Shown here: positions 126-20,918 of the stretch, piece after piece
Layout: each line of letters starts with the position of its first letter
Position numbering within the stretch: the stretch's first letter is position 1
IMG/VR virus record: IMGVR_UViG_3300021964_000342
Coordinates: 1 to 29,604 of that record
DNA from: a virus
Direction: 5' to 3' (one strand)
Length of the DNA: 29,604 bases
The notes under the pieces: generated by a model
The model's database searches: none
What the model was told of the DNA's origin: nothing
What the model saw: the letters and a program-made list of their open reading frames with translations, nothing else
Translations under genes and position numbers: made by a program

Positions 126-144
126 ATAATAAAAAGGAGAATAA

Positions 145-1413: not shown

Positions 1414-1645
1414 AAAAGATGAATTACAATTACTTGCAAAACAGTTTGTAATGAAACGAATAGAAGGGTTTGAGATAGAAGAACAACGCAAGTATTATCT
1501 TGAACCTAAATTAGTAGACGAATGGTCATACTATGTCTATTGTACCTGGAGAGAAAATACTATGATAAGAGGTTGGGATTTGAGATATCTTGATGACACA
1601 CCCCTTGGTATGCCTGCGGTTATGGATAAACGTAGGTATGAATAG
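1394..1645 (+). CDS. Hypothetical protein (83 aa)
   Basis: Not recognised. The product is basic at both ends (IKKRYRK at the start, DKRRYE at the end) and rich in aromatic residues in the middle (WSYYVYCTW). There is no membrane segment. The start is supported by GGAG at 1383-1386 inside the preceding gene. It is the last gene before a strong intergenic hairpin, so it may close a transcription or RNA-processing unit. Confidence 0.65.
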   Translation: MIKKRYRKDELQLLAKQFVMKRIEGFEIEEQRKYYLEPKLVDEWSYYVYCTWRENTMIRGWDLRYLDDTPLGMPAVMDKRRYE

Positions 1646-1653
1646 ATAAAGTA

Positions 1654-1694
1654 ATTGGATTAGTGAGTTATTAATTGTAACTTACTAGTCCAAT
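1654..1694 (+). promoter_or_regulatory. 17-bp intergenic hairpin
   Basis: Bases 1654-1670 pair along their full length with 1678-1694 as RNA (15 Watson-Crick pairs, 2 G-U), leaving a seven-base loop TTAATTG. It lies between the small-gene cluster and the recombination genes. What follows is a TAA-repeat tract and then the ribosome site, not a T-run, so it is not a standard intrinsic terminator on the + strand. It could be an RNA-processing or stability hairpin, a pause site, or an element read by a phage polymerase. As DNA the hairpin is imperfect only at the two G-U positions. Confidence 0.7.
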
Positions 1695-1728
1695 AATAAT
1701 AATAATAAAAATAAAATAAGGATAAAAT

Positions 1729-2295
1729 ATGAAATTCAAAGGTAAGGAATATACCGAAGTAAAAGATAGAATCATCGCATTCGCAGATGAATTTCCAGAA
1801 TCAACTATTGAAACACAAGTACTGAGTGTAAATCAAATTGTAGATACACCAACAGGTGAATCTTGCAATGAGTATGTTATAAAAGCAATAGTTAGACCAA
1901 ACCCTGTACAACAACCAGAATGGTTTTATGTTGGTCATGCAGCAGAACGTGATAATACAGGATTTGTAAACAAAACATCAGCATTAGAAAATGGTGAAAC
2001 ATCAGCAGTAGGTCGTGCATTAGCATTTGCAGGCTTTGGTGGTGACTTTTCTATTGCTAGTAAAGAAGAAGTAGACAATGCTAAAGCTAAACAAAAAGCT
2101 ATTAATCCAACAGTAGCATCATTATCAGCTATGGATAAAGCAGCTAACAATGCAGCTAAAGCAGGTACACTACCAGAAGAAGACCACCTTAGATACAAAC
2201 AGAAACGACAAGCTGGATTCTTTGATACAAAACTAAAAGTAAGTCAGAGTACAGAGTACTTTGAATCGTTAACGAAAACAGAAGGAGCTAAATAA
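1729..2295 (+). CDS. Erf/Rad52-like single-strand annealing protein (188 aa)
   Basis: Residues about 82-115 carry the signature of Erf/Sak-type annealing proteins: an ENGETSAVGRAL helix followed by a Gly-rich turn (AFAGFGGDFSIAS) and EEV. Proteins of this superfamily bind single-stranded DNA and promote annealing in phage recombination and replication restart. The N-terminal half is a mixed alpha/beta region expected of the core fold; the C-terminal third is Ala/Lys rich and probably flexible. It abuts the SSB-like gene with no gap, which fits a shared role on single-stranded DNA. It follows the 1654-1694 hairpin and a TAA-repeat leader. Length is on the short side for the family. Confidence 0.75.
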   Translation: MKFKGKEYTEVKDRIIAFADEFPESTIETQVLSVNQIVDTPTGESCNEYVIKAIVRPNPVQQPEWFYVGHAAERDNTGFVNKTSALENGETSAVGRALAFAGFGGDFSIASKEEVDNAKAKQKAINPTVASLSAMDKAANNAAKAGTLPEEDHLRYKQKRQAGFFDTKLKVSQSTEYFESLTKTEGAK

Positions 2296-2826
2296 ATGGC
2301 TATTACTGGAACAAAAGTGAAAACCAACACTTCCAATAAAAATTGGTTTATTAATCACTGTAAAATTGTAGAAATAGAACAAATAGATTCTCAATACAAT
2401 GATTGCAGTATTCGATTAAAATACGAAGATGTAGATAGTGGATATAATTATACTGCATTCATCAATCAGAACTTTGAAAAAGATAATAATGGTATTGTAA
2501 CTGGACTAAAATATCCAGATGATGTTAATACATTATATCTTGCAGCTAACGCTGATTTAAATGTATCTGATGTAGGAGAAGTCAATGTAGAAACCTTGAT
2601 TGGTAAAGAAGTAGCAGTACTGAATTATAAATCAACTGGTAAATACAAGAATGCTACATGGGGAGTAGTATCATCTTTAGATAAAACAGATGAACTTGGT
2701 AAACGTTTTATGGACCAAGTTGCTAAAGGTTATCCAAAGAACTACATGCAACCTGATTCAAGTGCACCGCAAACAACAGATACCTTTGGTGTAGATAAAG
2801 TGTCGGTTGACGACTTACCATTTTAA
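2296..2826 (+). CDS. ssb: Single-stranded DNA-binding protein (176 aa)
   Basis: The N-terminal two thirds look like an all-beta domain of the size of an OB fold, followed by a flexible Pro/Ser/Thr linker (about 150-168) and an acidic, hydrophobic C-terminal tip SVDDLPF. That tip matches the tail by which SSB proteins recruit helicase, recombinase and repair partners. Together with its position between an annealing protein and the primase-helicase this supports SSB. The ATG directly follows the preceding TAA; AGGAG at 2283-2287 is the ribosome site. Its stop overlaps the next ATG (TAATG). The OB fold is inferred from composition and context, not a strong motif. Confidence 0.7.
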   Translation: MAITGTKVKTNTSNKNWFINHCKIVEIEQIDSQYNDCSIRLKYEDVDSGYNYTAFINQNFEKDNNGIVTGLKYPDDVNTLYLAANADLNVSDVGEVNVETLIGKEVAVLNYKSTGKYKNATWGVVSSLDKTDELGKRFMDQVAKGYPKNYMQPDSSAPQTTDTFGVDKVSVDDLPF

Positions 2827-3086
2827 TGACTGCACAAGACATTCTATTAAGATGGATTGACTCTAAGGCTAAGTCTTCCGATGGACACTTTGCTAGCTAT
2901 GATTTAGAAAGCGAAGTCCCTGTATACGGAAGACTAGCACATCAGAAAGTACATACCCCAAGTACTTATTCTAGGGCATTTAGAAAGATACGTGAAGGTA
3001 ACACTTTAATGCGTTTAGGAATAGAGTTAGAAGAATATATTAATTCAGATACAAAGGTAAAAGGATGGAAAATAAAGAGACTATAA
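2826..3086 (+). CDS. Hypothetical small basic protein (86 aa)
   Basis: Not recognised. The chain is basic and mostly helical, with a segment HTPSTYSRAFRKIRE that could be a recognition helix of a small winged-helix or HTH protein, though no classical pattern is met. It starts on the overlapping TAATG with the SSB-like gene and overlaps the primase-helicase start by 22 bases. The location, between SSB and primase-helicase, suggests a replication accessory role. Confidence 0.65.
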   Translation: MTAQDILLRWIDSKAKSSDGHFASYDLESEVPVYGRLAHQKVHTPSTYSRAFRKIREGNTLMRLGIELEEYINSDTKVKGWKIKRL

Positions 3087-4855
3087 TTGAAATAATCAAT
3101 GGTAGTGTCGCTAATCGTAATACTGTTGGTACTGTAAAAGAGTTTGACGAAATGATTAAAAAGCATTGTTGGAATGGTGAAATGTATAGAAGCTATTATA
3201 GCTTTGATGAAACTATGAAAGATTATGTTGAGAATAATCGTACAGTCAAAGGATTTGATGGACTAACATATTTAGATTCAATCATCTTGGATGTGGACAA
3301 AGGGAATATACCTAATGACCAATTCCAACCTTACTTGTTACAATGCCTAGGAGAAATAGAAGACCTGGGCATTAACAAGAAGCACGTCAACATATGGTTT
3401 AGTGGTAATGGATATCATATAGAACTATTAAATGTATTTGGCTTTCAACCTAGTAGAGTATTACATGAAAAAGTAAAACTTACTATGAAAGAACATTTAT
3501 CATTTGCAGATAGTATCTTTGATAAAACACGTATCATTAGAGCACCATGGAGTGTGAATAAGAAGACTGGATTGTATAAGGTATTTATTCCTTATCACAG
3601 AATCTGGGAATTAGATTATGAAGAAGTCGCTGAAATGGCTTCTAATATAGATTCATACAAGACGTACCAAGAAGAAGATTGTGATTGGTATGACACTTAC
3701 TTCAGAGATAAAGAAGTAGAACCATACTTACAGAATCTTATTGTATCAACATCGCAAGCTGTATCTACAGGTAGATATCGTAGTAAAGATACTACATCGG
3801 TAGTTACGTGTATGCAGCACGCATTTAATGAAGGTCCTGTTGAAGGACAACGTAATATGAAAATGATGCGTATGTCTAGTACATACAAACGTGCAGGTGT
3901 TCCTTACATTGTTGCCTTAAATGGTATGTTACAATGGAGTGCTGGAACAATGGATGATGAAGAAATAATAAGAACAGTAAGTAATGTATATGATGGTAAC
4001 TACCAATATGGATGTCAAGATGTAATTATGGCAGAATATTGTGACCCTAAGTGTATTCATTTTAAAAGAAAAGATTACACATTGGATATCAAGAATGTTG
4101 AAGATATGACAAAATCGTTGGTAGAGTACTTACAAAATGACTTAACAAAGATGTCAATTAATATGGCAGATATATTTGATTGTCAAGACTATATCATTAA
4201 ACCTGGAGAGTTAGTTGTATTTTCTGGTGATACTGGTATGGGTAAATCTGCATTTGTACAAAATGTAGTTACTAAAGCTAATAAGAAAACATTATTCCTT
4301 TCATTAGAAATGAATGAATTTCTAACCTTTAGACGATTTGTACAGATAGCTAACAATCAAACAGAAGATTGGGTAATCAATCAAGTCAAAGCAAATCCTA
4401 ATATATCTTTCAAAGAACAATTAGGTCATATACAAGTAATGACAATAGCACCAGAGATTGAAGCTATTAAGAAGGTAATTGCAACGCATGAACCTAATAT
4501 CTTAGTAGTAGACACGACTGATGAAGTGCACGTTGATAGAGTAGAGTCTGAAATACAACGACAAAACATTATCATTGGTGCATTAAAAGAAATGGCACAG
4601 AAACATAATATAATTATTATAGCTGTGCATCACGTAAACAAGATATCTGCAGCAGGTAACACCATAGCATTGCATTCATTAAAAGGTAGTACTAATGTAG
4701 TACAAAAAGCAGATAAAGTAATAATGGTTAAAGGTAATCGTGACGAGAAAGCTAGAGTAGTAACTAGTGAGAAGTCAAGAGATGATGGCAAGTTTGAAAT
4801 GACATCATTGTTTGATTACGAAACAATGACCTTTAGACAAGTAGATTGGAGTTAA
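3065..4855 (+). CDS. Primase-helicase fusion (AEP-like primase + DnaB-like helicase, 596 aa)
   Basis: The N-terminal half looks like an archaeo-eukaryotic-type primase: DVD at residues 76-78 as the metal-binding acids, SGNGYHIE at 113-120 as the SxH-type motif, and RIIRAPWSVNKKTG at 156-169. Four cysteines follow (C249, C318, C326, C330) in an arrangement that could bind zinc or an Fe-S cluster. The C-terminal half is a RecA-fold DnaB-like helicase: Walker A GDTGMGKS 388-395, an SLEM segment at 413-416, Walker B ILVVD 479-483, AVHHVNK at 520-526, and a KGS...ADKVI motif near 540-553. It should prime and unwind at the phage fork, like T7 gp4, but with an unrelated primase. The ATG at 3065 has AAAGG upstream. 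Confidence 0.85.
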   Translation: MENKETIIEIINGSVANRNTVGTVKEFDEMIKKHCWNGEMYRSYYSFDETMKDYVENNRTVKGFDGLTYLDSIILDVDKGNIPNDQFQPYLLQCLGEIEDLGINKKHVNIWFSGNGYHIELLNVFGFQPSRVLHEKVKLTMKEHLSFADSIFDKTRIIRAPWSVNKKTGLYKVFIPYHRIWELDYEEVAEMASNIDSYKTYQEEDCDWYDTYFRDKEVEPYLQNLIVSTSQAVSTGRYRSKDTTSVVTCMQHAFNEGPVEGQRNMKMMRMSSTYKRAGVPYIVALNGMLQWSAGTMDDEEIIRTVSNVYDGNYQYGCQDVIMAEYCDPKCIHFKRKDYTLDIKNVEDMTKSLVEYLQNDLTKMSINMADIFDCQDYIIKPGELVVFSGDTGMGKSAFVQNVVTKANKKTLFLSLEMNEFLTFRRFVQIANNQTEDWVINQVKANPNISFKEQLGHIQVMTIAPEIEAIKKVIATHEPNILVVDTTDEVHVDRVESEIQRQNIIIGALKEMAQKHNIIIIAVHHVNKISAAGNTIALHSLKGSTNVVQKADKVIMVKGNRDEKARVVTSEKSRDDGKFEMTSLFDYETMTFRQVDWS

Positions 4856-4857
4856 TA

Positions 4858-5040
4858 ATGATAAAAATAAGAACAGTTAACAAATCAGATATTATGGCAC
4901 AAGAAATTGTGTTTTTGTATTTATTTGTTATTGGTGTTACATATCAAAAAGAAAGAGGAGAACACTTTTCATTTAATTTTGGAATAGGTCCAATTGGATT
5001 AGAGTTCACTTTGAGGTTGTGGAATGGCACATCCAAATAA
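4858..5040 (+). CDS. Hypothetical small hydrophobic protein (60 aa)
   Basis: Not recognised. There is a hydrophobic stretch (QEIVFLYLFVIGVTY, about 15-29) that could span or associate with a membrane, followed by a beta-like, Gly/Phe-rich half. I start it at ATG 4858 because GGAG at 4848-4851 is six bases upstream; an in-frame TTG at 4846 would overlap the primase-helicase. Its end overlaps the resolvase-like gene by 17 bases. Confidence 0.55.
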   Translation: MIKIRTVNKSDIMAQEIVFLYLFVIGVTYQKERGEHFSFNFGIGPIGLEFTLRLWNGTSK

Positions 5041-5356
5041 GATACGTGGTAATGCTCTTGAACGAGAAATCGTAAATCAATCTAAAGAGGAAGGGCTCTC
5101 TGCAAAGAGGGCCTATGCCTCCGATGGTAGGTCACTAGGTTATAGTGAAGTAGTAGATTGTGTAGTAGAGGATTGGACCATACAAGCAAAGAGAAAAAAG
5201 AAAATAGCACAATGGTTGTATCCAGAGTACCATGGAGATGATGTAGATGCGATTGTGACAAGAATGGATAGAAAAGAGGCGTTAATAGTTATGCCTCTAA
5301 AAAAATGGATAAAAATGATGAAGGAGATAAAAGATGGCAAAAGTAAATCTAAGTAA
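5024..5356 (+). CDS. Holliday-junction-resolvase-like nuclease (110 aa)
   Basis: A small PD-(D/E)XK nuclease. In order: GNALEREIV (conserved Glu, about 9-17), KRAYASDGRS (28-37), EVVDCVV with the metal-binding Asp near 45, then TIQAKRKKK near 52-60 giving the E/Q-x-K end of the motif. The arrangement and size match Hjc/RusA-alternative resolvases of phages that act on branched DNA during recombination and before packaging. It follows the replication genes and overlaps both neighbours. The basic C terminus probably contacts DNA. An endonuclease of related fold with a different substrate is possible. Confidence 0.7.
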   Translation: MAHPNKIRGNALEREIVNQSKEEGLSAKRAYASDGRSLGYSEVVDCVVEDWTIQAKRKKKIAQWLYPEYHGDDVDAIVTRMDRKEALIVMPLKKWIKMMKEIKDGKSKSK

Positions 5357-5570
5357 AGAAGAAGTAGAAATGGCGATAAAAGGTTTAGCTAATATAGTCA
5401 CTATTAAACATAGATATAGAGAAGTTAAAATGCCTAACTTGGATATAGATATGATTAGAGAAGTATTACATAAACTAGAAGCACCATTTGAAGAAAAATA
5501 CAATAAGATAATAAGAGATTCAGAAGACAAACAACCTAGAATAGGGAATTGTGAGTGTTGCGATGACTAA
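5334..5570 (+). CDS. Hypothetical protein with C-terminal cysteine cluster (78 aa)
   Basis: Not recognised. Helical, charged, with a C-terminal CECCDD that gives three cysteines in four residues and could bind metal. AAGGAG at 5321-5326 supports the ATG at 5334. It overlaps the resolvase-like gene by 23 bases and the next short gene by 8. Confidence 0.6.
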   Translation: MAKVNLSKEEVEMAIKGLANIVTIKHRYREVKMPNLDIDMIREVLHKLEAPFEEKYNKIIRDSEDKQPRIGNCECCDD

Positions 5571-5706
5571 ATTTAAGAAAGAAGAATTGTTGATAATGCG
5601 GTCTTCATTGCTTAACTTTAAGAAAGCACCTTGGGTGTCAGATGAAGAGAAAAAAATAATAAAAAATATTTTAAATAAAATTAGAAAACTATTTGAAGAA
5701 GAATAA
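5563..5706 (+). CDS. Short hypothetical protein (47 aa)
   Basis: A short open frame from ATG 5563 to TAA 5704-5706, overlapping the previous stop by 8 bases as many genes in this operon do. The product is Lys/Glu rich and helical (for example SDEEKKIIKNILNKIRKLF). No family is recognised and no strong ribosome site is seen, so translation would rely on coupling. It is the last frame before a long structured noncoding gap. Confidence 0.5.
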   Translation: MTKFKKEELLIMRSSLLNFKKAPWVSDEEKKIIKNILNKIRKLFEEE

Positions 5707-5709
5707 TAA

Positions 5710-5878
5710 TTATTGGCCTACATAATACGGCTTAAAAGGAGTCGGGCAGGTATTCAATCCTGTGCCTTTATTTAACGTTAAATTTAATAAATAAAGGAGA
5801 TTATTGATTTAATTGCACTATGGTTGGCCATCAACCACTGGTTGGTGCTGTAGTATAATTTAATTAGTAGGCCAATAA
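5710..5878 (+). ncRNA. Multi-helix structured RNA candidate upstream of the GroES-like gene
   Basis: No gene lies in 5707-5892. A 12-bp perfect closing stem joins 5710-5721 and 5867-5878. Inside, helices follow each other almost without gaps: 5728-5733/5739-5744 (6 bp, two G-U), 5746-5750/5759-5763 (5 bp, one G-U, T-arm-like), 5765-5774/5788-5797 (10 bp, perfect) and 5811-5820/5851-5860 (9 of 10 pairs). Within the last, TGGTTG at 5821-5826 can pair with CAACCA at 5832-5837, which could instead pair in part with GGTTG at 5840-5844, a possible switch. The right arm of the 10-bp helix contains AAAGG of a ribosome-site-like sequence at 5793-5799 that has no good start codon after it. I know no RNA family that matches. 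Confidence 0.55.
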
Positions 5879-5892
5879 AACAAGGAGATAAT

Positions 5893-6150
5893 ATGAAACC
5901 ATTAAGAGACGAAGTTGTAATAAAGCAGCAGTCAAGAGAAAACAAAACAGAAACAGGTATTATTTTAACAACAGATGTAGCAATCAAAGAAAACGTTGGT
6001 GAAGTAGTAGCTCTTGGTAGTAAAGCAGAAGAACTAGAAATTGGAGACAAAGTATTATTTGGTCCAGGATTTGTAGTTCAAGAAATAGATAGAAAAGAAT
6101 ATTTAATTATGAGTACCAAAAATATTCTATTAGTGTTAAATAACGAATGA
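5893..6150 (+). CDS. GroES-like co-chaperonin (85 aa)
   Basis: The sequence follows the Cpn10 pattern along its whole length: KPLRDEVVIK at the N terminus, a mobile loop around residues 14-31 with ETGIILT in place of the usual GGIVL, GEVVALG (36-42), LEIGDKVLFG (48-57), and YLIMSTKNILLV near the end. GroES caps the GroEL cage and sets its volume; phage versions (T4 gp31 is the classic case) adapt the host GroEL to fold capsid protein. At 85 residues it is shorter than bacterial GroES (about 95-97), mainly where the roof hairpin lies. AAGGAG at 5882-5887 precedes the ATG. No GroEL gene is in the window, so a host GroEL is the expected partner. Confidence 0.85.
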   Translation: MKPLRDEVVIKQQSRENKTETGIILTTDVAIKENVGEVVALGSKAEELEIGDKVLFGPGFVVQEIDRKEYLIMSTKNILLVLNNE

Positions 6151-6539
6151 TTATTCCTTATAAAAAACAATACGAAGTATTGAAAAAAGAATATGAAGAG
6201 TTGTCTAAAGAATTAAACCAATACGCTGATTTAAGTTTAAATGAATTTAAAGACCGTAAAAGCTTAATAACAAGGTTATATAAACTTGAAAAAGAATTAG
6301 AAAAAGAAAAAAGAAATAACAAATACTCCACAGAATACTTAGCTATTTTAGTTTGGCTTTATGGTATTGATAAAAAAAAGTATAATAAAGTAGTTGAAGA
6401 TATATGTAAAAAAATATATGATGACTATGAATGGAAGTCAGAAATACTAGGATATGATTTTTTGCATATGCATCTTTCAGAAAATAATAAATATGCAGAT
6501 GAGTTATTTGATTTATTTCACCAAGAAAGTGAGGACTAA
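6147..6539 (+). CDS. Hypothetical coiled-coil protein (130 aa)
   Basis: Not recognised. Residues about 5-60 form a Lys/Glu-rich coiled coil; the C-terminal half is compact and aromatic-rich (EYLAILVWLYG, then DDYEWKSEILGYDFLHMHL). The start overlaps the GroES-like stop as ATGA and the stop abuts the next ATG, so it belongs to the same unit as the co-chaperonin. Coupling to a GroES-like gene invites the idea of a folding or assembly accessory, but there is no direct support. Confidence 0.65.
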   Translation: MIIPYKKQYEVLKKEYEELSKELNQYADLSLNEFKDRKSLITRLYKLEKELEKEKRNNKYSTEYLAILVWLYGIDKKKYNKVVEDICKKIYDDYEWKSEILGYDFLHMHLSENNKYADELFDLFHQESED

Positions 6540-6917
6540 ATGGAATATAATGCTGATTTTCAATACGATTTAAAGTTTGGGCAAGAAGGTGAAACTGAAA
6601 TTGCAAAACTATTAAATAATTCTGAAGTTGAAGTAAAACGTGATAGACAGACTCAAAAAACTGGTAATGTATATATAGAATATGAATCAAGAGGTAAACC
6701 ATCTGGTATTAAAACTACCAAAGCTAATAAGTGGGCATACATATTACAAGATGGCTGCATTCTTATTGTTGATACAGAACTACTAAAAAAAGCATTACGT
6801 TATTTAATTAAAGCTAGACTATGTGTAAAAGATATGTCTGGTGGTGATGATAATACATCAGTAGGTGTATTAGTAAGTGTAGAAAGACTAATGGAAGGTA
6901 TAAGAAAAGTACAATGA
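6540..6917 (+). CDS. PD-(D/E)XK-like nuclease (125 aa)
   Basis: The pattern is that of a family of small phage nucleases: GQEGETEIAKLL (about 14-25) with a conserved Glu, SEVEVKRDRQTQKTGN (28-43) in which EVK supplies the catalytic E-x-K, then YIEYE (45-49), a PSGIKTT turn, and NKWAYIL (63-69). The fold class is established for DNA-cleaving enzymes; the actual substrate is unknown. It starts immediately after the preceding TAA with GAGG at 6531-6534, and its stop overlaps the final short gene (ATGA). It is the second nuclease of this fold in the operon. Confidence 0.65.
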   Translation: MEYNADFQYDLKFGQEGETEIAKLLNNSEVEVKRDRQTQKTGNVYIEYESRGKPSGIKTTKANKWAYILQDGCILIVDTELLKKALRYLIKARLCVKDMSGGDDNTSVGVLVSVERLMEGIRKVQ

Positions 6918-7166: not shown

Positions 7167-10100
7167 CTAATCTAAATCTTCTTCTATTTCTTCTTCATTT
7201 GCTTCAATCTGGTCTCTTCTGAGTTCATGAAGCGTATGAACTGGAATACCAAACATAAATTCACCAAACATAGCAGGACTTTTATACGTTCTTGCTACAT
7301 CTCTACCAAATCTACCAAATGGAAAATAAGTTGCTAATTGATATTTAGTTAAATTCTCAAAATCTTGATTTAATAATGCAGTTGTTGGTGCTAAAACAAA
7401 ACGAGCTATAGGTGGTGTTACAATACTTAATGGTGATAATACTGGATGTGGGTATTGACTAAAGAACGCACGTTCTCTTTCTTCTTCATCACCAAATAAT
7501 AACATAGCAGTATCTTGCATCCAATTCATTGGCGGTGATAATGCATAGTCAAATATACTTGCAACAAATATATTAGCAAGTGATAATGCCATTAAATCTG
7601 CAGTAAGTTGTCGTTGTGCTCTTTGTGTTTTGTAGCCACCAGACCATTCTTCAAACTTAGCACCTCTATATATTTTAATTCTTCTACCAATACTATTCCA
7701 AGCATAAGGATGGAAACGTGTCATAACTCTACCTAAAGATGTATTAGCTACATTAGGTCGTTGTGTTGCGTGGTAAATAAACTGTGATGCTTTTACAGTT
7801 CTATTTGCTAACTGAATCAATATAGGATGGTCAAATGGTAAATTTTTACCAAACTCACCTAACATTTGTCTTGCATTAATATATGCTGCATCCCAAGTTC
7901 TACTACGTAATAAAAACTCAGACTTTCTCATAAACACAGCACCAGCATTAGTAATAGCTTTACCTGCACCTACTTCTTTAAATACTTCTCTAGTAGTCAT
8001 ATCTGCAAAGTTATCAAACTCTTTGTCGTTCTTAGCACGTAATCCATCTTTACTTAATGTTCTAGATACAGTTTTTACTGCTTTAACTAATGGTTCTGAC
8101 ATACCTACCATTTGGAATCTTGAATCTTTTTGTGCTTCATTAATTAACATATCTTCAAAAGTACCAATGTATGCTTGCCACTCTTCCCATTCTTTTCTAT
8201 TTCTAATTCTTTTAGTAATAACTTCTCCACTAGCAGAGTCTAAAATTTTATAAGTTGTATTTTTACCCCATACATTATCATTCCACCAAGTATCAGATAA
8301 TGCATTTGTAAATGGTTTTAATCCTACATCAGTAATGGTATTACTACCACCACCATAAATATTAGTAATAAATGTTTTAGGGTGAAACAACAACGACATC
8401 ATTTCAAATTTACCTTCAAGGTCATTTAAATTTTGTCCTAATCTTGCTATATACATATCTCTTGCTGCTCTATTTTTAGGTGCTGCATCTAATATTTTAC
8501 CACCAAATACTTTATCTAAACGCTCAGTAAAGTTTATAACAGATTCATCAGTCAACAACCCATAGCCATTACCAAATCTACCTATCTTATTTATATTTTT
8601 TTCTTGTAATAATTTAGCTAGGTTTTCCATCTTAGCTTGTTTTGCTAAATCTAATGAACGTTCTTGTCTTGTATCAGCATCTATATTATCTCTTTTCATT
8701 TTAGATATCTCAGCTCTAATTTCACCACGTTGTATAGTGCTTAATCCTATGTGATAATCTACACGTTCTAAAAAGTCTTTTTGTTTACGCATACCTTTTA
8801 CAAAACTTTTATCAAAATTATTTGCAGCATAATCTTTTAGTAAATCAAATTCTTTTTGTGTAATACCATGGATATCAAAGTTACGTATAGAAGGATATCC
8901 CATTTGATTCTTAGCAACATCCATCATAAAATATGCCCAAGACTCTGTAATGTCTTTATCTTTTCTTAATGGATTTTTTTCTACAAAACGTTTAATGTTA
9001 TTACCTACCTTTAATGATAGATTACTATTAATTAAGTTTCTATACATAGAACCTACATATCTATCTACGTGATTAATACCAAGGTCCCATTCAGGTAAAC
9101 TAACTTCTTCACTTCTACCTTTTAGATGTCCATTGTATCTACCCATACCCATAGATTTTTGTAAAGTAAAATCTTCTATAATAGCAAGTTCTGCTATGTC
9201 ATTTAACTTGTCTACACCTTTGGTGTTATACCCTTCGTATTTTTCTCTTAATGACACTTCATATCTTAACAATGCTCTTTTTAATGCTACTTCTCCTTGA
9301 TTGCTTGCTGCATACTCTAAATCTATTGATGATAATATACTTGGGTCTTTAGTAGCTTTTTCTAATTCTTTTTGTATAATTTTTTCTATAGCTACTTCGT
9401 TTTGTTCTCTTCTAAAATTAGTACCAAAAGGGTCAGTATGTGGAACGTAATGTTTAACAGTACCATCAGATGATACATATCTACCTAAACTAACAGTTTT
9501 AGTTAATGGTTTATTACGCATGTAATTTTCCATTTCTTTTCTAACTACAGCAAATTCTTCTTTAGATAGCTGTTTAGTAAAATCTAGCTTAACCATCTTT
9601 CCTTTAACTTTTACTTCTTTCTCAAACACACGTTCAAGATGTTCATTCAATCTTTGGTAATATCTAAAAAAGTTTACATCAGTTAATGAAGGTAGCTTTC
9701 TTAAAGCACTAAGTGGGTCACTAGCAATCAACTCACTAAGACCAGCATACAATGCATCTACTTTACTTCTATTAGATAGTAATCCATTAGAATCTAAGAA
9801 CAATCTTTGTAGCTGTTGTATATCATAAGCTATTTGTTTATCTACATAATTTTTTTCATTTGGTTTTGGTTGTGTTAATAAATCACCTTCTGGTATTTTA
9901 TATTCATTAATCTTTTTACCTAGTGTTACAAGTTTGTCTTTCAATACACTACTTCTACTCATAATAACATCTTTCATAACTTGAGTCATAATGTTTGTAT
10001 AAGATTCGTTAATCATCTTTACTACTTGTTCTGGTGTTTTGCTAACACGTTCACCTTTTGTACCAGTCTCAGTTTCAAACTTAAACTTAATACCTTCTTT

Positions 10101-13100
10101 GGTCATTTTATCAAACTCTGCTTTGAGTGTTTTGTATTTGTTTTCTATATTTATTTCTTGTTCTCTGTTTTTAATACCATCATAAAACTTTAATGTTCCA
10201 TCTTTAGCAGGATTTGCTTCTCTTAATATCATAGTATATTTGAATAGAGTAGTAAAGTTATTACCTTGTGCTCTATCTTCTGGTCTAATTAAACGTAAAC
10301 TTTGTTCTATTTGTTCTTCAATATCTTTTTGTTTAGCATTATTCATTTGATGGAATGCAAGTGTCATTTCAGTATTCAGTTCAATAGTACTGTATGGCAT
10401 TGTACCAACTTTAAATTTAATATTACCATCTTTATCTTTAACTACGTTTTCTACACGACCCATTGTTTGGTCTTTTTCTGCATTCTCAATAAACTTTAAC
10501 TGGTCTTTTAATGTAGTAGTAGCAAAATGTTCAAACCATTTAGGTGCCCCTTCTATACTATAGGTTCCAGTTTCTTTATCAAACTTAATAGACTTTTGAA
10601 GTAATCTTTTTACAATACCAGGTTGTAACATAGAATCATAATAGTTCATAAAATTATTGATATCTTTTGCAGTAGCATCATTAAACTCTTTACCTACCTG
10701 AAATCCTTGGAATGGTCTACCAGTGGTAAAAGATTCAAACTGAGCATCAATAGTAGAACCAAATCCTTTGTGAGTTCTTAAGAAATTTTCTAATCTACGT
10801 AATACAGCTTTACCATAGTCAGTAAGATTAGGGTCTTTATATGCTTGTTCAAAATCAATCTTAGCTATACCTTCTTTGTCTACTTTAATTTTAGCATATT
10901 GTTCTTCTATAACTTCTATTTCTTTTTCTTGTTTTTCTTTTGCTATTTCTTCACGTACACCTTTTTCTAAGTCTTTAGCTTTTACTGTTCTAGTTTTACT
11001 TACTGGTATATCTGCATTATCAGTAGTCTCTGGTGCTTTAATTTCATTTGTTTTGTTATATACAGCATCTATGGTGTTAAAAAATACTTTACTATTCGCA
11101 GGGTCTATAGCAGGATTCTTGAACATTAATTCGTTTTGCAATCCTTCTATAGCATTCTTAATGTTTCTTACTTCTGATAGCTTTGCATTAGTATCACTGT
11201 CATACTTCATGGTATTTTCATCAGGAAATGTTTTTTCTAACTCTTTGTATATTTCTTGTATTCTGTCATAACCTTCATTCAATGTATACTCTACATTCTT
11301 TTTTAGTTTATTATTATAGATAGCATCACCAAGCTTAGGGTTGCCTTTTGTTTTTACAATAGGATGTGCGTGTAATGCAAAGTCCATAAATGCATACATC
11401 TCTCTACGTACAACGTTTAATGCCTTTGGATTCTTAATACGTTTACTTAACATAGTGTTCATCACTTTTTTCATATCAAGTATAGACTCTGCAATAGCCC
11501 TAGTGTTTTCACCTTGTTTCATTTCAAAAGTTTTTCTTAGTATGGTTTGTAAATCCTGTATGATGTTTTCTCTAGCCATACCTTGTTTACTTAATAACTC
11601 TATAATGTAATCTCCTTTACGTGTTAACAAATCAACACCAATAAGATTATTTACTGTTCCTCTAAGATTCTTACCACCTTTCAAATCATTAGTTAAAAAC
11701 TTTACATTCAAGTCTTTGTAAAAATCTAACAACTCTAATTCTTTAAACGTACTACTCTTTTTAAGGTTTTGATATGTACGTTGTAAATATGCTACCACAT
11801 TTTCTGGACTAGTAAATTTAAAGTTTAAAAACTCTCCACCCATATCTAGCTTAGATAATAATTGTGCTTGTTGCATAAAGTAATTTGTTTCTGCACCTTG
11901 TTTCATATATGGTTGCCATTGGTCTATAAAGTCTTTAGCAGCTTTAATTAATGATGGATTTTTAATTTTTCTATATTTTCCTTTACCAACATATCTATGC
12001 TCAGGATTTACCCATACATCTTTTTTACTTTGTATAGCTTTAGAAAATACTTTAAATGCATGTAAACTTGTTTTCTTGTTATTGGTTAATGTATACCATT
12101 TACTAGATTTTTGTGTGCTAACATCTTTACCATTACGTTGTACTGTAAAAAATGTTTCAAATATCTTTTGTACATTATCAGTAGCTTTACCAATTTTTAC
12201 AAACTCTGCACTATCTACTGCAATATTAATACCAGTATAACTTACATCTTTTAAGAATGCAAAGTCGTTTAGTTTAATTTTTAAGGTGTATCCATTACCA
12301 ATATCTAGTCTACCACCATTGGTAGTTATAATATCAAATAACATCTGAAAGTCTGTAGTAGCATTTACAATAGTACCTACTGCTTTCTTACCTTCATATG
12401 CAGCTTTAGCAGCTTTTAATCTTTCTTTGGTACTAAATAACATAGATAGTTTTTGACCTTCGCTAATTTTCTTATCTTGAAATACTACATCAAATAAAGT
12501 TTCTGCAATACTACGACCTTGTTTGTCGTATTTATTTTTCATTGCTTTTAAATCTCTAGGTGTAGCAGTAATATTACCATCTTGTAATTCATATTGTATT
12601 TTAGGATTACTAAATGCTTTTTTAACTATAGAAGGTAATGATTGATATCCTGTTACTGTATCGCCATCTTTATCCATACCACCTAAATACAAATCATTTA
12701 ACTCTGATGCAAAGAAATTATATCCACCACGTTCTACAAACCCTTTAAATACCAATGCTCTTACACCGCCATTACCACTATTAGGTGTACGCATTACTAA
12801 AAATGTTAAAGCATCTTCTAGTAAATCTAACTTTAACTTATCTTCTTTAGTCTTTTGAAGTTTTTTGTATTGTTTATATGCTTGTTCAAGAGTCATTACT
12901 TCTTGACCAACTTTAATAGGATTCTTTCTGTGTTGTTCTCCAAGCATAAACTCTGCTTCTTTAAGTCCATGCATACGTTCTAGACGTGGTGTATACAGCC
13001 CAGCATAGGCCTTAAATCCACTTTCTACACCTATTTGATTACTTCTGCCTACAATGTATCTAGCAAGGATATTAGATATAAAATTTTGATTCTCTTTCAT

Positions 13101-16100
13101 TACATTAAATGCGTAATCAGTTTTCTTTAATACCTCTGGTGTAAATCCTAGTTCTGCTATTTCTGCCATATCTAATGTAGCAACGTCAGATAGGTCTACA
13201 GTATCTTTATTAACCTGTTTGTTTAGTTGATTTACTATTTCCTTTGCTCTTTTGGTAGTAGGATTTGCTTGTAATGTATCGATTAAATCTTGTACTTTAA
13301 TAGTGTCAATGTCAAAATTAATATAATCATCTCCACCTTTTAAAAATTCTTGTGTTAATTTTTTATTACCTTCCATGTTGTTAATACGTAGTTCTTGTAT
13401 TGCATCAAAATATGTTTGGTCAAAATCTTGTAATGTATTCTTATCTAAAAATTGTTTGTATAACTTTAATTTTTTTTGTCTGTTAATTTCTTGTTTTTGT
13501 TTATATACATAGTCGGTAACCGATTCATTAATACCAAGTTCTTCAGGTCTAATCTTAGCAACGTCTAATGCATCTTTAAATGACCAAGAATCGTTCTTAC
13601 TTTCTATCAATTCATTAAGTTTTAATTTACCAAGCTGTTTAATACCACTACCATATACTAGAATATGTGTATTAGTGTCCATCATTAATTTATTTAGTCC
13701 AGCAGACTCTGGTTTAAATCCACCTGATTTAGTACGTATTTCTCCTCTACCCATTCTAGGGTTTGCTACAATAACAGGTTTTAAAAATCCATAATCTTTG
13801 GCCCAACCAAATTTATTACCAATAGTATTCCATACATCTTCTCTAATAATGAAACCACCATCAGTTCCAGATTCTAATTCTATACCATACTTCTTTAATT
13901 TTTTATCAGTAACACCTACTAGGTTTAGATATCCGTATATACCACCATCCATAACTTTAGCAAGGTCTGTTGCATCCATAGGTACTACATCACTTTGTGG
14001 TAATGTGTCGTATTTGTTATCTTTTAATACATCACCATTAATCTTACCTTCAGCTATATCTTGTTTTAATTCTTTTAATGCTTTTTTTAAATCTGCTTTA
14101 TTAACAGTAGGTCGTTCTATATATCCATTGTCTAACAACTTATATACCATATTAGATGCCATCTCTAATTGTTCTGTTGCACTTTTTAAATACTCTTTAC
14201 TAACACCAGATTCAAGCATAGCTTCTACATAAGTGTTTAATTTTTCTTTTACATTGTTTGGTACTCTTTGCAGTATGACTGTTCCTTTGTCTTTAGCACC
14301 ACCATAGATATAATAATCACTATATTCTACTAATATGTTTTCATATAACTTATCAAGTTCTGCTTTACTATATATGTCTAATGGTTCTTTATATATACCA
14401 GGATTCTTTGGGTCTTCTGCTTTTCTAATAATAACACGTGTATCAAGCCCATATCGTTCGTTAATAGAGTTTTCAGCAGTACGTTCTACTAAATTTTTAC
14501 CATTTTTATCTACTTCTAGTTTAGGTTTACCCTTAGAATCTTTACCAGTACCTATTTCAACAATTTCTCCTGACGCATTAATAGCAAATTGAGAACGTTC
14601 TGCATAGGTTTTAATGCGTAAAAACATAGACTTTAAAGGAACTTCGCCTACTTCATTTGTAAACTTTACCCCTTTAAATTTGCTTTGAACATAAGATTCA
14701 AATCCAGAATAATCATTGATATTTTCATATACACCTTCAATTAATAATTGTTTTGTGTCATATTTACCTAGATTATAATTGCTAGGGTCTTTTAGTATTT
14801 GTTGATATACTTTGTCTAAAGATGTATTAATACTTATAGGGTCGTTTATATCACCATCTTTTGATTTCATATAAGCATTATACTCTGGGTCAAAAGAATC
14901 TAATAATCTTTTTTGAACTTCTTCTATTTGAAACTTTTCTACTGCTTTTTCTACTACCTCTTGACGTTCTTGTGTTTTTCTAGCAAAGTCTTTATCTGTT
15001 TCAAATCTTTTAATATATAAATCTACTGGTGTTCTACCTCTATCCATTAATGCCTGAACAACATCTGACTTTGTTGCTTCTTCCGATAATTCTTTTAGTT
15101 GTTCTGGATTAGCTTTTTCAATATCTATTTTCTTTTCTTCAGCTATCTTAACAATCTCTCTATCAATAATAAGTTTAGCACCTATTTTTTGTGCACGTTG
15201 TTGTTGTTGTAAATACAATGTATTAACGTGCTTATCAAACATTTCTTGTACTTCAGGATTCTCTTTATATATCTCAGTCTTTTGTATGTCTTTCTTATAT
15301 CTGTTAATGTTGCTATTACCATTCATCATAGGGTTTTCAGCAATCATCTTTCTAAACTTAATTTCTTGTGGTGATTTAGAGTTTGCACCAAAAAAGAATC
15401 CCATCATATATTCATAGACTTGCTCTGGTAATGGTAATTGATTATAAGTAGCCATACCACCTTGGAATGATGCACCTGCAATACCACGTGCAAATGCATT
15501 AGCTGCAGTTTCATTAGTTAAAGAGTTGTCTGCTGCATCACGTACTGCCTGCTCTCCTAGTTTTCTTGTCTTAGGATTTGATAATAACTTAGATATGTTT
15601 ACATAACGACCAATACCACCAAAGGTAACCCCTGCTAGTGCACCATGCATTGTAGATTCTGCAATAGCTTTTGGTCCTTTCCATACAGAACTAGCACCTA
15701 ATGCAATACCAAGATGTACACCTTCTTTAGCTAGTTGTTGAAATGTTTCATTTTTAAATAAACCTTTAGATAAAAATCCTTGTGATAATAAACCAGATGA
15801 TGCAATCTTTTTTTCTATATTATCAGTAACCATGTCGGCTACACGCATAGGTATAGAACGTATCTGCCAACCTTTTAAATCTTTTATTTCTTTTTCACCA
15901 GCTTTTAATGCTAGCTTTACAGCTTTTTCTTGACCTTCTTCTGCTATAAACTTAGCAAATGGTCTAAATCCACCTATTTCTATTTTAGCTGCACCTTGAC
16001 CCATTGATGCTGCTAAACCACTAGCAGATTGCTTTATAGACTCTTCAGCTGCTTCTGCTGCAACTACTTGGTCTGCTATCTTACTACGTTTAGTTGCTGC

Positions 16101-16541
16101 TTCTGTAGTTGGTCTACCTACTGCACGTTTTACTGCTAACTTAGCACCACCTCTTTTAGCTATAACACCTGGTACTGCAGCACCCATAGATAATACACTA
16201 GCTATAATATCAGGAGCAAATCCTATAAAGTGACCTACCTTATTAGCTAATGCTTCTGTTTGTGTATCAGCTTCTGATGCCCAACCTAGTGTGGTAAATC
16301 CTTCTACAACACCAGAAGTAAATTGATTTAATACGTCACCTACACTATTCTCAGATGATGCCATATCTCTATTGAAATCAATGTCATTAGCCTTCATTCT
16401 TTTTTCAATGAAGTCTACATCTTCTTCTGAAAAATCACGTGGATTAGACTTATAAGCTAAGTCTATTCTAGTTAAATATGTTTGTTTATCAATTAATCTT
16501 TGTGAATAAAGATTATTCAAATACTGCAATTGTGTATTCAA
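7167..16541 (-). CDS. Giant virion-type protein with RNA-polymerase-like core (3124 aa)
   Basis: A single open frame filling almost a third of the window. Start is TTG at 16541, backed by AGGAG six bases upstream; no nearby ATG fits. Residues about 104-128 are hydrophobic and Gly/Ala rich, and a second hydrophobic stretch lies near 2980-3000, as in ejected proteins that meet the host membrane. Residues about 850-1450 carry marks of a double-psi beta-barrel RNA polymerase: DGG 894-896, lysines at 938 and 968 (SGIKQLG), RTP 1251-1253, DKDGD 1290-1294, and a helix with EGKKAVG near 1383-1389. The remainder is mostly helical with coiled coils. It is the last gene of the virion block, after a lysozyme and a gp14-like protein. 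I infer a packaged, injected polymerase. I see no T7/N4-type polymerase motifs and no lytic transglycosylase motif. Confidence 0.9.
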   Translation of the reverse strand: MNTQLQYLNNLYSQRLIDKQTYLTRIDLAYKSNPRDFSEEDVDFIEKRMKANDIDFNRDMASSENSVGDVLNQFTSGVVEGFTTLGWASEADTQTEALANKVGHFIGFAPDIIASVLSMGAAVPGVIAKRGGAKLAVKRAVGRPTTEAATKRSKIADQVVAAEAAEESIKQSASGLAASMGQGAAKIEIGGFRPFAKFIAEEGQEKAVKLALKAGEKEIKDLKGWQIRSIPMRVADMVTDNIEKKIASSGLLSQGFLSKGLFKNETFQQLAKEGVHLGIALGASSVWKGPKAIAESTMHGALAGVTFGGIGRYVNISKLLSNPKTRKLGEQAVRDAADNSLTNETAANAFARGIAGASFQGGMATYNQLPLPEQVYEYMMGFFFGANSKSPQEIKFRKMIAENPMMNGNSNINRYKKDIQKTEIYKENPEVQEMFDKHVNTLYLQQQQRAQKIGAKLIIDREIVKIAEEKKIDIEKANPEQLKELSEEATKSDVVQALMDRGRTPVDLYIKRFETDKDFARKTQERQEVVEKAVEKFQIEEVQKRLLDSFDPEYNAYMKSKDGDINDPISINTSLDKVYQQILKDPSNYNLGKYDTKQLLIEGVYENINDYSGFESYVQSKFKGVKFTNEVGEVPLKSMFLRIKTYAERSQFAINASGEIVEIGTGKDSKGKPKLEVDKNGKNLVERTAENSINERYGLDTRVIIRKAEDPKNPGIYKEPLDIYSKAELDKLYENILVEYSDYYIYGGAKDKGTVILQRVPNNVKEKLNTYVEAMLESGVSKEYLKSATEQLEMASNMVYKLLDNGYIERPTVNKADLKKALKELKQDIAEGKINGDVLKDNKYDTLPQSDVVPMDATDLAKVMDGGIYGYLNLVGVTDKKLKKYGIELESGTDGGFIIREDVWNTIGNKFGWAKDYGFLKPVIVANPRMGRGEIRTKSGGFKPESAGLNKLMMDTNTHILVYGSGIKQLGKLKLNELIESKNDSWSFKDALDVAKIRPEELGINESVTDYVYKQKQEINRQKKLKLYKQFLDKNTLQDFDQTYFDAIQELRINNMEGNKKLTQEFLKGGDDYINFDIDTIKVQDLIDTLQANPTTKRAKEIVNQLNKQVNKDTVDLSDVATLDMAEIAELGFTPEVLKKTDYAFNVMKENQNFISNILARYIVGRSNQIGVESGFKAYAGLYTPRLERMHGLKEAEFMLGEQHRKNPIKVGQEVMTLEQAYKQYKKLQKTKEDKLKLDLLEDALTFLVMRTPNSGNGGVRALVFKGFVERGGYNFFASELNDLYLGGMDKDGDTVTGYQSLPSIVKKAFSNPKIQYELQDGNITATPRDLKAMKNKYDKQGRSIAETLFDVVFQDKKISEGQKLSMLFSTKERLKAAKAAYEGKKAVGTIVNATTDFQMLFDIITTNGGRLDIGNGYTLKIKLNDFAFLKDVSYTGINIAVDSAEFVKIGKATDNVQKIFETFFTVQRNGKDVSTQKSSKWYTLTNNKKTSLHAFKVFSKAIQSKKDVWVNPEHRYVGKGKYRKIKNPSLIKAAKDFIDQWQPYMKQGAETNYFMQQAQLLSKLDMGGEFLNFKFTSPENVVAYLQRTYQNLKKSSTFKELELLDFYKDLNVKFLTNDLKGGKNLRGTVNNLIGVDLLTRKGDYIIELLSKQGMARENIIQDLQTILRKTFEMKQGENTRAIAESILDMKKVMNTMLSKRIKNPKALNVVRREMYAFMDFALHAHPIVKTKGNPKLGDAIYNNKLKKNVEYTLNEGYDRIQEIYKELEKTFPDENTMKYDSDTNAKLSEVRNIKNAIEGLQNELMFKNPAIDPANSKVFFNTIDAVYNKTNEIKAPETTDNADIPVSKTRTVKAKDLEKGVREEIAKEKQEKEIEVIEEQYAKIKVDKEGIAKIDFEQAYKDPNLTDYGKAVLRRLENFLRTHKGFGSTIDAQFESFTTGRPFQGFQVGKEFNDATAKDINNFMNYYDSMLQPGIVKRLLQKSIKFDKETGTYSIEGAPKWFEHFATTTLKDQLKFIENAEKDQTMGRVENVVKDKDGNIKFKVGTMPYSTIELNTEMTLAFHQMNNAKQKDIEEQIEQSLRLIRPEDRAQGNNFTTLFKYTMILREANPAKDGTLKFYDGIKNREQEINIENKYKTLKAEFDKMTKEGIKFKFETETGTKGERVSKTPEQVVKMINESYTNIMTQVMKDVIMSRSSVLKDKLVTLGKKINEYKIPEGDLLTQPKPNEKNYVDKQIAYDIQQLQRLFLDSNGLLSNRSKVDALYAGLSELIASDPLSALRKLPSLTDVNFFRYYQRLNEHLERVFEKEVKVKGKMVKLDFTKQLSKEEFAVVRKEMENYMRNKPLTKTVSLGRYVSSDGTVKHYVPHTDPFGTNFRREQNEVAIEKIIQKELEKATKDPSILSSIDLEYAASNQGEVALKRALLRYEVSLREKYEGYNTKGVDKLNDIAELAIIEDFTLQKSMGMGRYNGHLKGRSEEVSLPEWDLGINHVDRYVGSMYRNLINSNLSLKVGNNIKRFVEKNPLRKDKDITESWAYFMMDVAKNQMGYPSIRNFDIHGITQKEFDLLKDYAANNFDKSFVKGMRKQKDFLERVDYHIGLSTIQRGEIRAEISKMKRDNIDADTRQERSLDLAKQAKMENLAKLLQEKNINKIGRFGNGYGLLTDESVINFTERLDKVFGGKILDAAPKNRAARDMYIARLGQNLNDLEGKFEMMSLLFHPKTFITNIYGGGSNTITDVGLKPFTNALSDTWWNDNVWGKNTTYKILDSASGEVITKRIRNRKEWEEWQAYIGTFEDMLINEAQKDSRFQMVGMSEPLVKAVKTVSRTLSKDGLRAKNDKEFDNFADMTTREVFKEVGAGKAITNAGAVFMRKSEFLLRSRTWDAAYINARQMLGEFGKNLPFDHPILIQLANRTVKASQFIYHATQRPNVANTSLGRVMTRFHPYAWNSIGRRIKIYRGAKFEEWSGGYKTQRAQRQLTADLMALSLANIFVASIFDYALSPPMNWMQDTAMLLFGDEEERERAFFSQYPHPVLSPLSIVTPPIARFVLAPTTALLNQDFENLTKYQLATYFPFGRFGRDVARTYKSPAMFGEFMFGIPVHTLHELRRDQIEANEEEIEEDLD
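12192..13994 (-). other. Candidate double-psi beta-barrel RNA polymerase core (residues ~850-1450)
   Basis: This is a domain within the giant gene. The first half (codons for D894 at 13862-13860, K938 at 13730-13728, K968 at 13640-13638) resembles the barrel that supplies catalytic lysines in crAss-like, YonO and eukaryotic RdRp-type enzymes: a TDGG start, a KP segment, TKSGGF, then HILVYGSGIKQLG. The second half has RTP at 1251-1253 and GGMDKDGDTV, matching the arginine-proline motif and the DxDGD metal loop (codons 12674-12660); the three acids would be D1290, D1292 and D1294. The helix near 1378-1405 sits where the bridge helix is expected. Matching is by eye; domain limits are approximate. 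Confidence 0.6.
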
Positions 16542-19250: not shown

Positions 19251-20918
19251 TTATGGTGCTATATCTGAACCTATACATGTTATATCTAAATCAGTATTAG
19301 ACACGCTGTTGTTCGTAAATGTTATTGTTTGTGTATTGTTATCATCAATGTCTTTTACTCTTGTATACTTAAATCTTAAATAATACGTGCTAGCATTAGC
19401 TATAATTACAGATGTAGTATACGTATCACTTGTACTAGGTGTAGACGATGTGCTTGCCGCTACCAGCAATGCACCGATTAAACCTGATTGACTACACTGT
19501 ATTGTGGTATTGCCACTACCATTTGTTAACGTAATAGTTTTACCAGGTGAGTATGCAACTCCATAATATTCAAAAGCTTCTAAAGTAAAATCTACTGGTA
19601 CATTAGACCAAGCTGTTCCTGCTGCAGCTGTAGTAACATTACTTGTAGCACTATAACTACTTGTATGCAAAGGACTTCCTGTATTAGTACCATTTTGTGC
19701 TCTTGCTCTTACATAGTATGTAGTACCAGCTGTAATTCCACTACTAAAAGTATTACTACCAGTAGCATTTCCAGATGCAGTAGTACCTTTAACACTAGGT
19801 GTCACATATGCTGTTTGCAAATTACTAGAATTAAAAGTATTTACTGTGTCTATTTGTACTTTCCAATGTCTTGTTACATATGTTTCACCACTTAAATTTA
19901 CTGTCAAAGCAGAACTCGTTGTTGCTGACAAAGTAATTGATGGTAAATTTGGTACCGCTGAATATTTGGCTATAACATCCCCATCGTCATCTACATTTAT
20001 AATTACATCGTTATCAGACGATATTGGGTTATCTTGTCCAAACCAACCATTTACATAACTATCTGGTAATGTACCTCCACCTGAACCATCTTGGTTACCG
20101 TTAAAATCTCCACCAGTTCCATAAAAATCTACTGCTAAACCTTGTGCATTGTCATATATTTTAGAGTTAACAGCAAAATTAATATCATCTGTATAGTAAC
20201 CAGTTGCTGTAGCATTATTTGCTGAATTAGTATCGTCAAACTCAGCACATTCTAATAGCTGTGTATTTGTGTAAGGATAAGAAACACTAGTACTTGGTCC
20301 TGTTTGTTCTGTTAAATGTTGTAAATCTCTTAACTGATAAGCACCTATCGTTGTTGCAAACTTGTCTTGTATAATAAAAGAAGCACTGTCTATATTGTAA
20401 AATATAATTTTATAATACCAAGTTCCTACCGCTAAGCTTGTAAGATTGTCTTGAAAAGAACCAGAAGATGTACCATTTTGAATAAGTGTACCTGGTTCAA
20501 TAAAAGAACTTCCAGCAGAACTAGACCTGTACAACTGATGAGAATGAGCATTAGAACCGTAAGTCCATGTCAATGTTATAAACTGATTACCTGTTCTTGT
20601 AGCAGTTAAATCTCCGTTAGGAAGGCCTGCTTCTGTATCAGATGTTGCTGCAGTAGTTGTTCTTCCTGCACTTGTTGTTCCAATGTTTTGCGAAAGCTCT
20701 GTACGAAACCATCCATTAAATGATTTAATATATAAACTTTTACTACCTTGCTGATTTACAATAACTGTATCTCCAATACTTCCTTCTGCATTATTAGGTA
20801 CAAAGTTTTGCTCTTTTGCAGGAGTACTGTATTGTTGTTGGGCTTCACGAAACTTTTTAACCATTTCTACTTGTTTTCGTATTGTTTTAGGATGTTTGGC
20901 GTTAGAATTTTTAATCAT
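19251..20918 (-). CDS. Beta-rich tail/fibre protein with Fn3-like segments (555 aa)
   Basis: The first ~35 residues are basic and helical, then the chain becomes Ser/Thr/Gly/Asn-rich beta structure. Segments such as QFITLTWTYGSNAHSHQLYRSS (residues ~112-133) and GTTYYVRARAQNG look like fibronectin-type-III strands, and TWYYKIIFYN is similar. Such proteins decorate tails or fibres and touch the cell surface. The start overlaps the preceding stop by four bases (ATGA). It follows the tail-nozzle-like gene. No cleavage domain or lectin signature is visible. The exact place in the tail is not known. Confidence 0.7.
   Translation of the reverse strand: MIKNSNAKHPKTIRKQVEMVKKFREAQQQYSTPAKEQNFVPNNAEGSIGDTVIVNQQGSKSLYIKSFNGWFRTELSQNIGTTSAGRTTTAATSDTEAGLPNGDLTATRTGNQFITLTWTYGSNAHSHQLYRSSSAGSSFIEPGTLIQNGTSSGSFQDNLTSLAVGTWYYKIIFYNIDSASFIIQDKFATTIGAYQLRDLQHLTEQTGPSTSVSYPYTNTQLLECAEFDDTNSANNATATGYYTDDINFAVNSKIYDNAQGLAVDFYGTGGDFNGNQDGSGGGTLPDSYVNGWFGQDNPISSDNDVIINVDDDGDVIAKYSAVPNLPSITLSATTSSALTVNLSGETYVTRHWKVQIDTVNTFNSSNLQTAYVTPSVKGTTASGNATGSNTFSSGITAGTTYYVRARAQNGTNTGSPLHTSSYSATSNVTTAAAGTAWSNVPVDFTLEAFEYYGVAYSPGKTITLTNGSGNTTIQCSQSGLIGALLVAASTSSTPSTSDTYTTSVIIANASTYYLRFKYTRVKDIDDNNTQTITFTNNSVSNTDLDITCIGSDIAP

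Follow-up and report, generated by a model that had tools for sequence, protein, structure and literature searches.

Organization of the locus

The window analysed here is the whole 29,604-base stretch of viral record IMGVR_UViG_3300021964_000342 (GC 32%), in which the plus strand carries early and replication genes (1-6,900) and the minus strand the late ones. The late block ends with an open reading frame (ORF) of 3124 amino acids, about 350 kDa, referred to below as the giant protein. Very probably it is a virion RNA polymerase (RNAP) of the single-chain, two-barrel type, built from double-psi beta-barrels (DPBB) and embedded in a giant late protein of a marine, podovirus-like phage of about 50 kb. 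Against three relatives, the ratio of nonsynonymous to synonymous substitution rates (dN/dS) of the giant gene is well below 1.

Conserved polymerase motifs

A first-pass annotation, made from the DNA letters, had read a DPBB polymerase signature in the span 12192-13994, which corresponds to residues 850-1450 of the giant protein. All residues that it quoted lie at the positions given: GGMDKDGDTV with D1290, D1292 and D1294, RTP at 1251-1253, K938 in TKSGGF and K968 in SGIKQLG, and, as read in the 3124-residue ORF, TDGG at 893-896 and KP at 921-922. This motif observation is confirmed.

Relatives were collected from IMG/VR. A scan with the giant protein yielded 18 loci with identities down to 32-34%, and scans with core alignments yielded 78 and 48 loci, the second of these core scans using the patterns GQNKSFI and [KE][GN]LHMIM and not the DxDGD loop. 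The merged scans contained 135 motif-bearing ORFs including that of the window, 81 of which were non-redundant by k-mer containment and 75 of which were kept. Conservation of the marked residues, on which the annotation had made its reading depend, was found throughout: K843, D894, K921, K938, K968, R1251, P1253, G1259, F1268, G1287, G1288, D1290, D1292, D1294 and D1443 are identical in 69/69 aligned cores, whose identity to the window protein is mostly 15-19%. Because GGxDxD[GA]D was a condition for inclusion in the alignment, the invariance of the three aspartates is partly a product of ascertainment. The invariance also holds in all 28 rows from scans made without the DxDGD pattern, and in pattern-independent scans the loci spanning the active-site loop had the motif. 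A copy in a Bacteroidetes prophage (see below), found via its C-terminal region, carries DLDID, with the same three aspartates kept. Around the loop, the consensus of the family reads RVPMDSxSGAxxLxFxGFTGRxGHGxLLHxRxMRALGGADLDGD, of which GGADLDGD presumably resembles the catalytic loop of RNA-dependent RNA polymerases. DPBB-A is under the strongest purifying selection in the giant protein (dN/dS 0.03-0.12).

Predicted fold and links to known polymerases

AlphaFold2, run on residues 590-1780 with the core alignment as input, returned a model with a predicted local distance difference test score (pLDDT) of 82.2 and a predicted template modelling score (pTM) of 0.80. In a Foldseek search of the PDB the phi14:2 virion RNAP (6VR4) ranked first (E 9e-10) and QDE-1 second (E 3.3e-6), the remaining rows being subunits of multisubunit RNAPs or phage two-barrel RNAPs. 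VIA-align gave Z-scores of 13.3 for RDR2 (513 residues), 12.4 for QDE-1 (590), 11.8 for 6VR4 (770) and 11.0 for P74 gp62, and 50/50 listed rows were two-barrel RNAPs or their subunits. The best matches in a library of predicted viral structures were unnamed proteins and crAss-like phage proteins. The two-barrel fold postulated by the first-pass annotation is borne out by this model, which matches two-barrel RNAPs (6VR4, QDE-1, RDR2) across both barrels, and at the level of a predicted structure the RNA polymerase reading is supported. The annotation had further made it a test that K968 and DKDGD meet in one site; their proximity is implied in the model only by single alignments that cover both barrels. 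Its bridge-helix candidate near 1378-1405 has a counterpart in the model, EGKKAVG lying inside a predicted helix that follows DPBB-A, the place of the bridge helix in two-barrel RNAPs (PMC10770324). A trigger loop could not be assigned confidently in the predicted model.

Profile-profile comparison points in the same direction. Aligned with hhalign, the family profile matched the crAss RNAP cr111 with Prob 80% and E 1.4e-5, as against Prob <=1% for controls (unrelated large non-RNAP proteins and reversed sequences). Here crAss FESAVK pairs with the K968 stretch and the crAss R-x-P...SDLDVD with R-T-P...MDKDGD, and K968 is in register with the lysine of the crAss ESAVK. A profile of 11 crAss RNAP sequences gave Prob 78% and E 1.9e-5 over a stretch reaching from DPBB-B to DPBB-A, in which the phi14:2 loop D1361-F-D1363-I-D1365 lands on D1290-K-D1292-G-D1294. 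The loop SGADFDGD of Lactococcus phage 1706 orf75 also aligns with the family loop. When a 71-amino acid family consensus was searched against 50,697 phage records, matches appeared at E 2-10 only and were mainly crAss-phage proteins and, annotated as "RNA-dependent RNA polymerase", Lactococcus-phage proteins. With several family members as tblastn queries, no RNAP relative was found among the same 50,697 records. Whole-protein searches of Pfam, PHROGs and PDB sequences gave nothing meaningful; a match to SpoU_sub_bind (Pfam, E 0.02) fell below the cut-off and was dismissed. Judged by these comparisons, homology to known RNAPs is very distant.

Table 1 Features of the giant protein and its neighbours; residue numbers refer to the 3124-residue ORF.
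Feature	Coordinates	Strand	Basis or remarks
Giant protein, 3124 aa	7167..16541	-	Open ORF, TTG start; virion-type N-terminal region, two-barrel RNA polymerase (predicted) and conserved helical C-terminal region
N-terminal region, residues 1-585	14787..16541	-	Candidate ejection/assembly region; hydrophobic stretch ~102-130
Predicted two-barrel RNA polymerase core, residues ~643-1576	11814..14615	-	Model residues 54-987 align to 6VR4, QDE-1 and RDR2
DPBB-B (beta-subunit-like barrel), residues ~880-990	13572..13904	-	D894-G895, K921, K938, K968; invariant residues, profile alignment to crAss RNAP, model strands
DPBB-A (beta'-like barrel), residues ~1245-1310	12612..12809	-	R1251-x-P1253 and DKDGD; gp66 DFDID and crAss DxDVD align there
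Predicted metal-binding loop D1290-K-D1292-G-D1294	12660..12674	-	Position, conservation, profile alignment
Insertion slot after residue 1354	12480..12482	-	Empty in the window protein; pairwise alignments
Bridge-helix-like helix, 37 residues, 1371-1407	12321..12431	-	Helix 782-818 of the model by DSSP; placed after DPBB-A
Conserved C-terminal region, residues ~2440-3115	7197..9224	-	68-member alignment; hydrophobic stretches 2978-3003 and 3033-3057 by hydropathy
Two small late proteins, 224 and 185 aa	16543..17761	-	Immediately precede the giant gene; by position, candidates for internal virion proteins
Small internal-virion lysozyme-like protein, 225 aa	17736..18413	-	phrog_2083 "internal virion lysozyme motif", E 5.7e-9

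Insertion slot and flanking regions

An unexpected feature of the family is a slot between the catalytic barrel and the bridge helix that receives additional domains in some members (Table 1). In L010 and L011 it holds a cpYpsA/SLOG domain (Pfam PF12694, E 6e-17 and 3e-19) and in L005 and L012 a different domain of 109-121 amino acids, L005 and L010 being otherwise 94-96% identical to the window protein across the core. The position of this slot beside the active site raises the question of whether ligand-sensing modules control phage RNAPs. Single other members also have SLOG, DprA-like or DUF4326 matches in their terminal regions. Residues ~450-608 of L015/L016 form a DprA/SLOG-like insert that is also found, weakly, in crAss phages and in the virion RNAP of the N4-like Klebsiella phage Pylas (E 2e-4 to 6e-3, tblastn with one query); it is an accessory domain and not an RNAP.

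Both terminal regions are conserved. G/F/Y positions are invariant in a 47-member alignment of the N-terminal region, for which no Pfam family scored above the cut-off in the window protein, and the C-terminal region was modelled as helical (pLDDT 70.5), with nothing in the PDB matching the model. The hydrophobic stretches of the two regions could serve membrane passage, a weak reading because some other members have no such hydropathy peaks at the same threshold. Between the core and the C-terminal region, residues 1800-2300 (9642-11144) show a synonymous divergence (dS) of 0.82 against the close relative L003, compared with 0.15-0.35 in the other measured regions, a pattern suggestive of recombination or exchange within the central part of this gene.

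Late-gene context and polymerase content

Adjoining the giant gene on its upstream side are small late genes and the genes for a lysozyme-like protein, for tail-type proteins and for a metallophosphoesterase. The small lysozyme named by the first-pass annotation is substantiated by its PHROGs match (Table 1), whereas the label "gp14-like" for the 185-amino acid neighbour found no significant profile match; neither this protein nor the 224-amino acid one has a significant family match.

No T7-type RNAP (PF00940) was detected in any of 30 related records, the T7 positive control scoring E 1e-109. By a 7-row profile, 29/30 related records have one RNAP gene, and in five records read whole there was no second gene with a convincing GGxDxDGD loop. 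One record of 88,986 bases (G028, containing L045) carries two different giant RNAP ORFs of 3080 and 3031 amino acids about 48 kb apart, and is either a chimeric assembly or a double-length element.

Relatives and host

Most full-length family members have 2.8-3.5 thousand residues, and related records are mostly 43-56 kb long. One of them, G001, has the same late block together with a terminase (E 1e-82), a portal (E 7e-68) and a major head protein (E 2e-23); the head and packaging genes match PHROGs entries for the terminase large subunit (TerL, phrog_38), portal (phrog_156) and major capsid protein (phrog_1328). The best-ranked tblastn rows for TerL are not Crassvirales.

A prophage search covering one genome per species identified a complete-looking prophage of the family in contig JAHISV010000010.1 (G031:C3, L169-L172), part of a Bacteroidetes metagenome-assembled genome (MAG), at ~92-138 kb (92000-137800) of 142.6 kb. 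Its terminase is 53% identical to that of G001, and it encodes a portal, a head gene and a giant protein of 2925 amino acids whose DLDID loop is of the same type as in crAss RNAPs. Bacterial-type genes flank the prophage, and a recombinase-like ORF begins near the contig end. In the Ignavibacteriae MAG contig PMMO01000176.1 (L165/L173), a 262-amino acid ORF between bacterial-type genes matches the C-terminal region of the giant protein and is, by sequence, likely a prophage remnant. In the window itself, a lysine-rich 80-amino acid protein (24582-24824) resembles proteins of the Pelagibacter phages HTVC103P (gp55) and HTVC104P, with 85-86% DNA identity over ~120-130 bases; this likeness could stem either from a gene exchanged with pelagiphages or from a host in common.

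At the sensitivities used, the family has no entry in Pfam, PHROGs or among annotated or named phages; some members may already figure in a survey of viral two-barrel RNAPs (PMC10770324). This large, diverse and unannotated family combines a polymerase and presumed delivery machinery in a single gene of ~50 kb phages. Small related records, no detectable T7-type RNAP and a complete-looking Bacteroidetes prophage make it a compact system in which the packaging, unfolding and injection of a giant polymerase, and its coupling to DNA entry, can be tested. Aligning the family with crAss RNAPs also contributes a link between single-chain two-barrel RNAPs that have diverged very far.

Proposed role and alternatives

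Late-operon position and the lysozyme neighbour fit a packaged and injected enzyme, and we infer packaging, injection, polymerase activity, a DNA template and an early role for the giant protein. It would be synthesised late and stored in the capsid, ejected through the tail ahead of or together with the DNA, and would then refold in the cell and transcribe the first phage genes. Packaging and the crossing of tail and envelope are probably tasks of the N- and C-terminal thirds. A more elaborate version, doubtful as a whole, would make the protein an ejection machine and polymerase in one: the terminal thirds would build or gate a DNA-entry channel, the middle third, as the sole phage RNAP, would transcribe the entering DNA, and the slot domain of some siblings would couple first transcription to a nucleotide-derived host signal.

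Several results weigh against a virion polymerase. Overall template modelling scores (TM-scores) are low, 0.36 to 6VR4. With hhalign, the comparison with gp66 alone was not significant (Prob 0.9%), the loop still being in register, and neither were those with P23-45 gp64 and gp96. A HMMER search of PDB sequences with the core profile found no RNAP and chance matches only, which leaves structure and profile-profile comparison as the basis of the link. For both terminal regions, searches gave no match to any known ejection protein. Finally, the window is a 29.6-kb fragment, and a second RNAP elsewhere in the genome is possible.

An active two-barrel RNAP need not be virion cargo: its late-placed gene could be expressed during infection, and the enzyme could transcribe late genes or serve another synthesis step. 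Late position shows only the timing of expression, and some phage two-barrel RNAPs are non-virion, such as P23-45 gp64 (PMC10770324), or are encoded by a separate gene outside any giant protein, such as Lactococcus phage 1706 orf75. However, the polymerase is here embedded in a chain of 3.1 thousand residues with conserved N- and C-terminal thirds, right after lysozyme and late structural-type genes, and the experimentally known fusions N4 virion RNAP (vRNAP), phi14:2 gp66 and P23-45 gp96 are all virion proteins (PMC10770324, PMC5512222), which makes a non-virion enzyme improbable. That the two barrels have degenerated or been repurposed for a structural or DNA-binding role, with polymerase function lost, could be argued from the fast divergence of the middle region (residues 1800-2300), but invariant predicted catalytic positions, the strong selection on DPBB-A and the bridge helix of the model leave this very improbable. 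Hardly credible is a chance or Ca2+-loop-like DxDGD motif in an ordinary ejection protein. By itself DxDGD is a weak mark, present in 5% of composition-preserving shuffles of the giant protein, and an unrelated 555-amino acid tail-type protein of the window (19251-20918) has a chance DDDGD, providing a negative control for motif reading. DKDGD nevertheless stands above chance level because the marked residues are conserved in 69/69 cores, and both the fold match to 6VR4 and QDE-1 and the co-conserved R-x-P, K938 and K968 already contradict a chance motif.

Comparison with known systems

Virion RNAPs of the cellular, two-barrel type have been described in crAss-like phages, in jumbo phages and in a group of Thermus siphoviruses. 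The closest parallel to the giant protein, read as a virion RNAP, is found in Crassvirales. Like phi14:2 gp66 (6VR4), a virion RNAP with experimental support (PMC10770324), it has a single-chain two-barrel RNAP in a large protein, with RxP, DxDxD and a DPBB-B lysine aligned, and like Crassvirales the family includes a phage of Bacteroidota, the Bacteroidetes prophage. Virions of crAss001 contain RNAP-associated proteins by mass spectrometry, for which a model proposes partial unfolding during ejection (PMC10172136). However, phi14:2 and crAss001 have several large virion proteins from separate genes (gp66, 2180 amino acids) in genomes of ~100 kb, whereas here one polypeptide of 3.1 thousand residues is encoded in ~50 kb. 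Family members from viral contigs have DxDGD where Crassvirales RNAPs have DxD[IV]D, and aligned identity is ~10-13%.

P23-45 gp96 is an active virion two-barrel RNAP fused to the tail tape (PMC10770324). With gp96 and gp64 the family shares a two-barrel RNAP, in gp96 fused into a giant virion protein, and a DxDGD loop with R-x-P upstream. In contrast, gp96 is a siphovirus tape measure whose RNAP is N-terminal and clampless and is accompanied by a second, non-virion RNAP, while no second RNAP was detected in the present family. QDE-1, the second Foldseek match, and plant RDR2, which with QDE-1 has the top VIA-align Z-scores, are stand-alone polymerases of eukaryotic RNA interference and showed no sequence-level match. 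YonO-type and Lactococcus phage 1706 RNAPs are likewise single-chain DPBB-type polymerases, but stand-alone ones of ~1000 amino acids outside giant virion proteins.

In layout and presumed role, the giant protein resembles N4 gp50, a virion protein of ~3500 amino acids with a central polymerase, an N-terminal injection region and a C-terminal packaging region (PMC5512222). The N4 vRNAP shares this three-part layout, but its polymerase is of another kind, with a T7-like and not a two-barrel fold (PMC5512222); membership of the N4-like virion RNAPs was rejected, as PF00940 was absent from 30 related records and the giant protein had no Pfam match. In crAss-like and N4-related phages, virion RNAPs are fused to large proteins, an arrangement that may link early transcription to the entry of DNA (PMC10770324). 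A virion two-barrel RNAP in a giant protein is of a known kind; what is new is that phages of ~50 kb carry a virion-type RNAP inside a single giant late protein.

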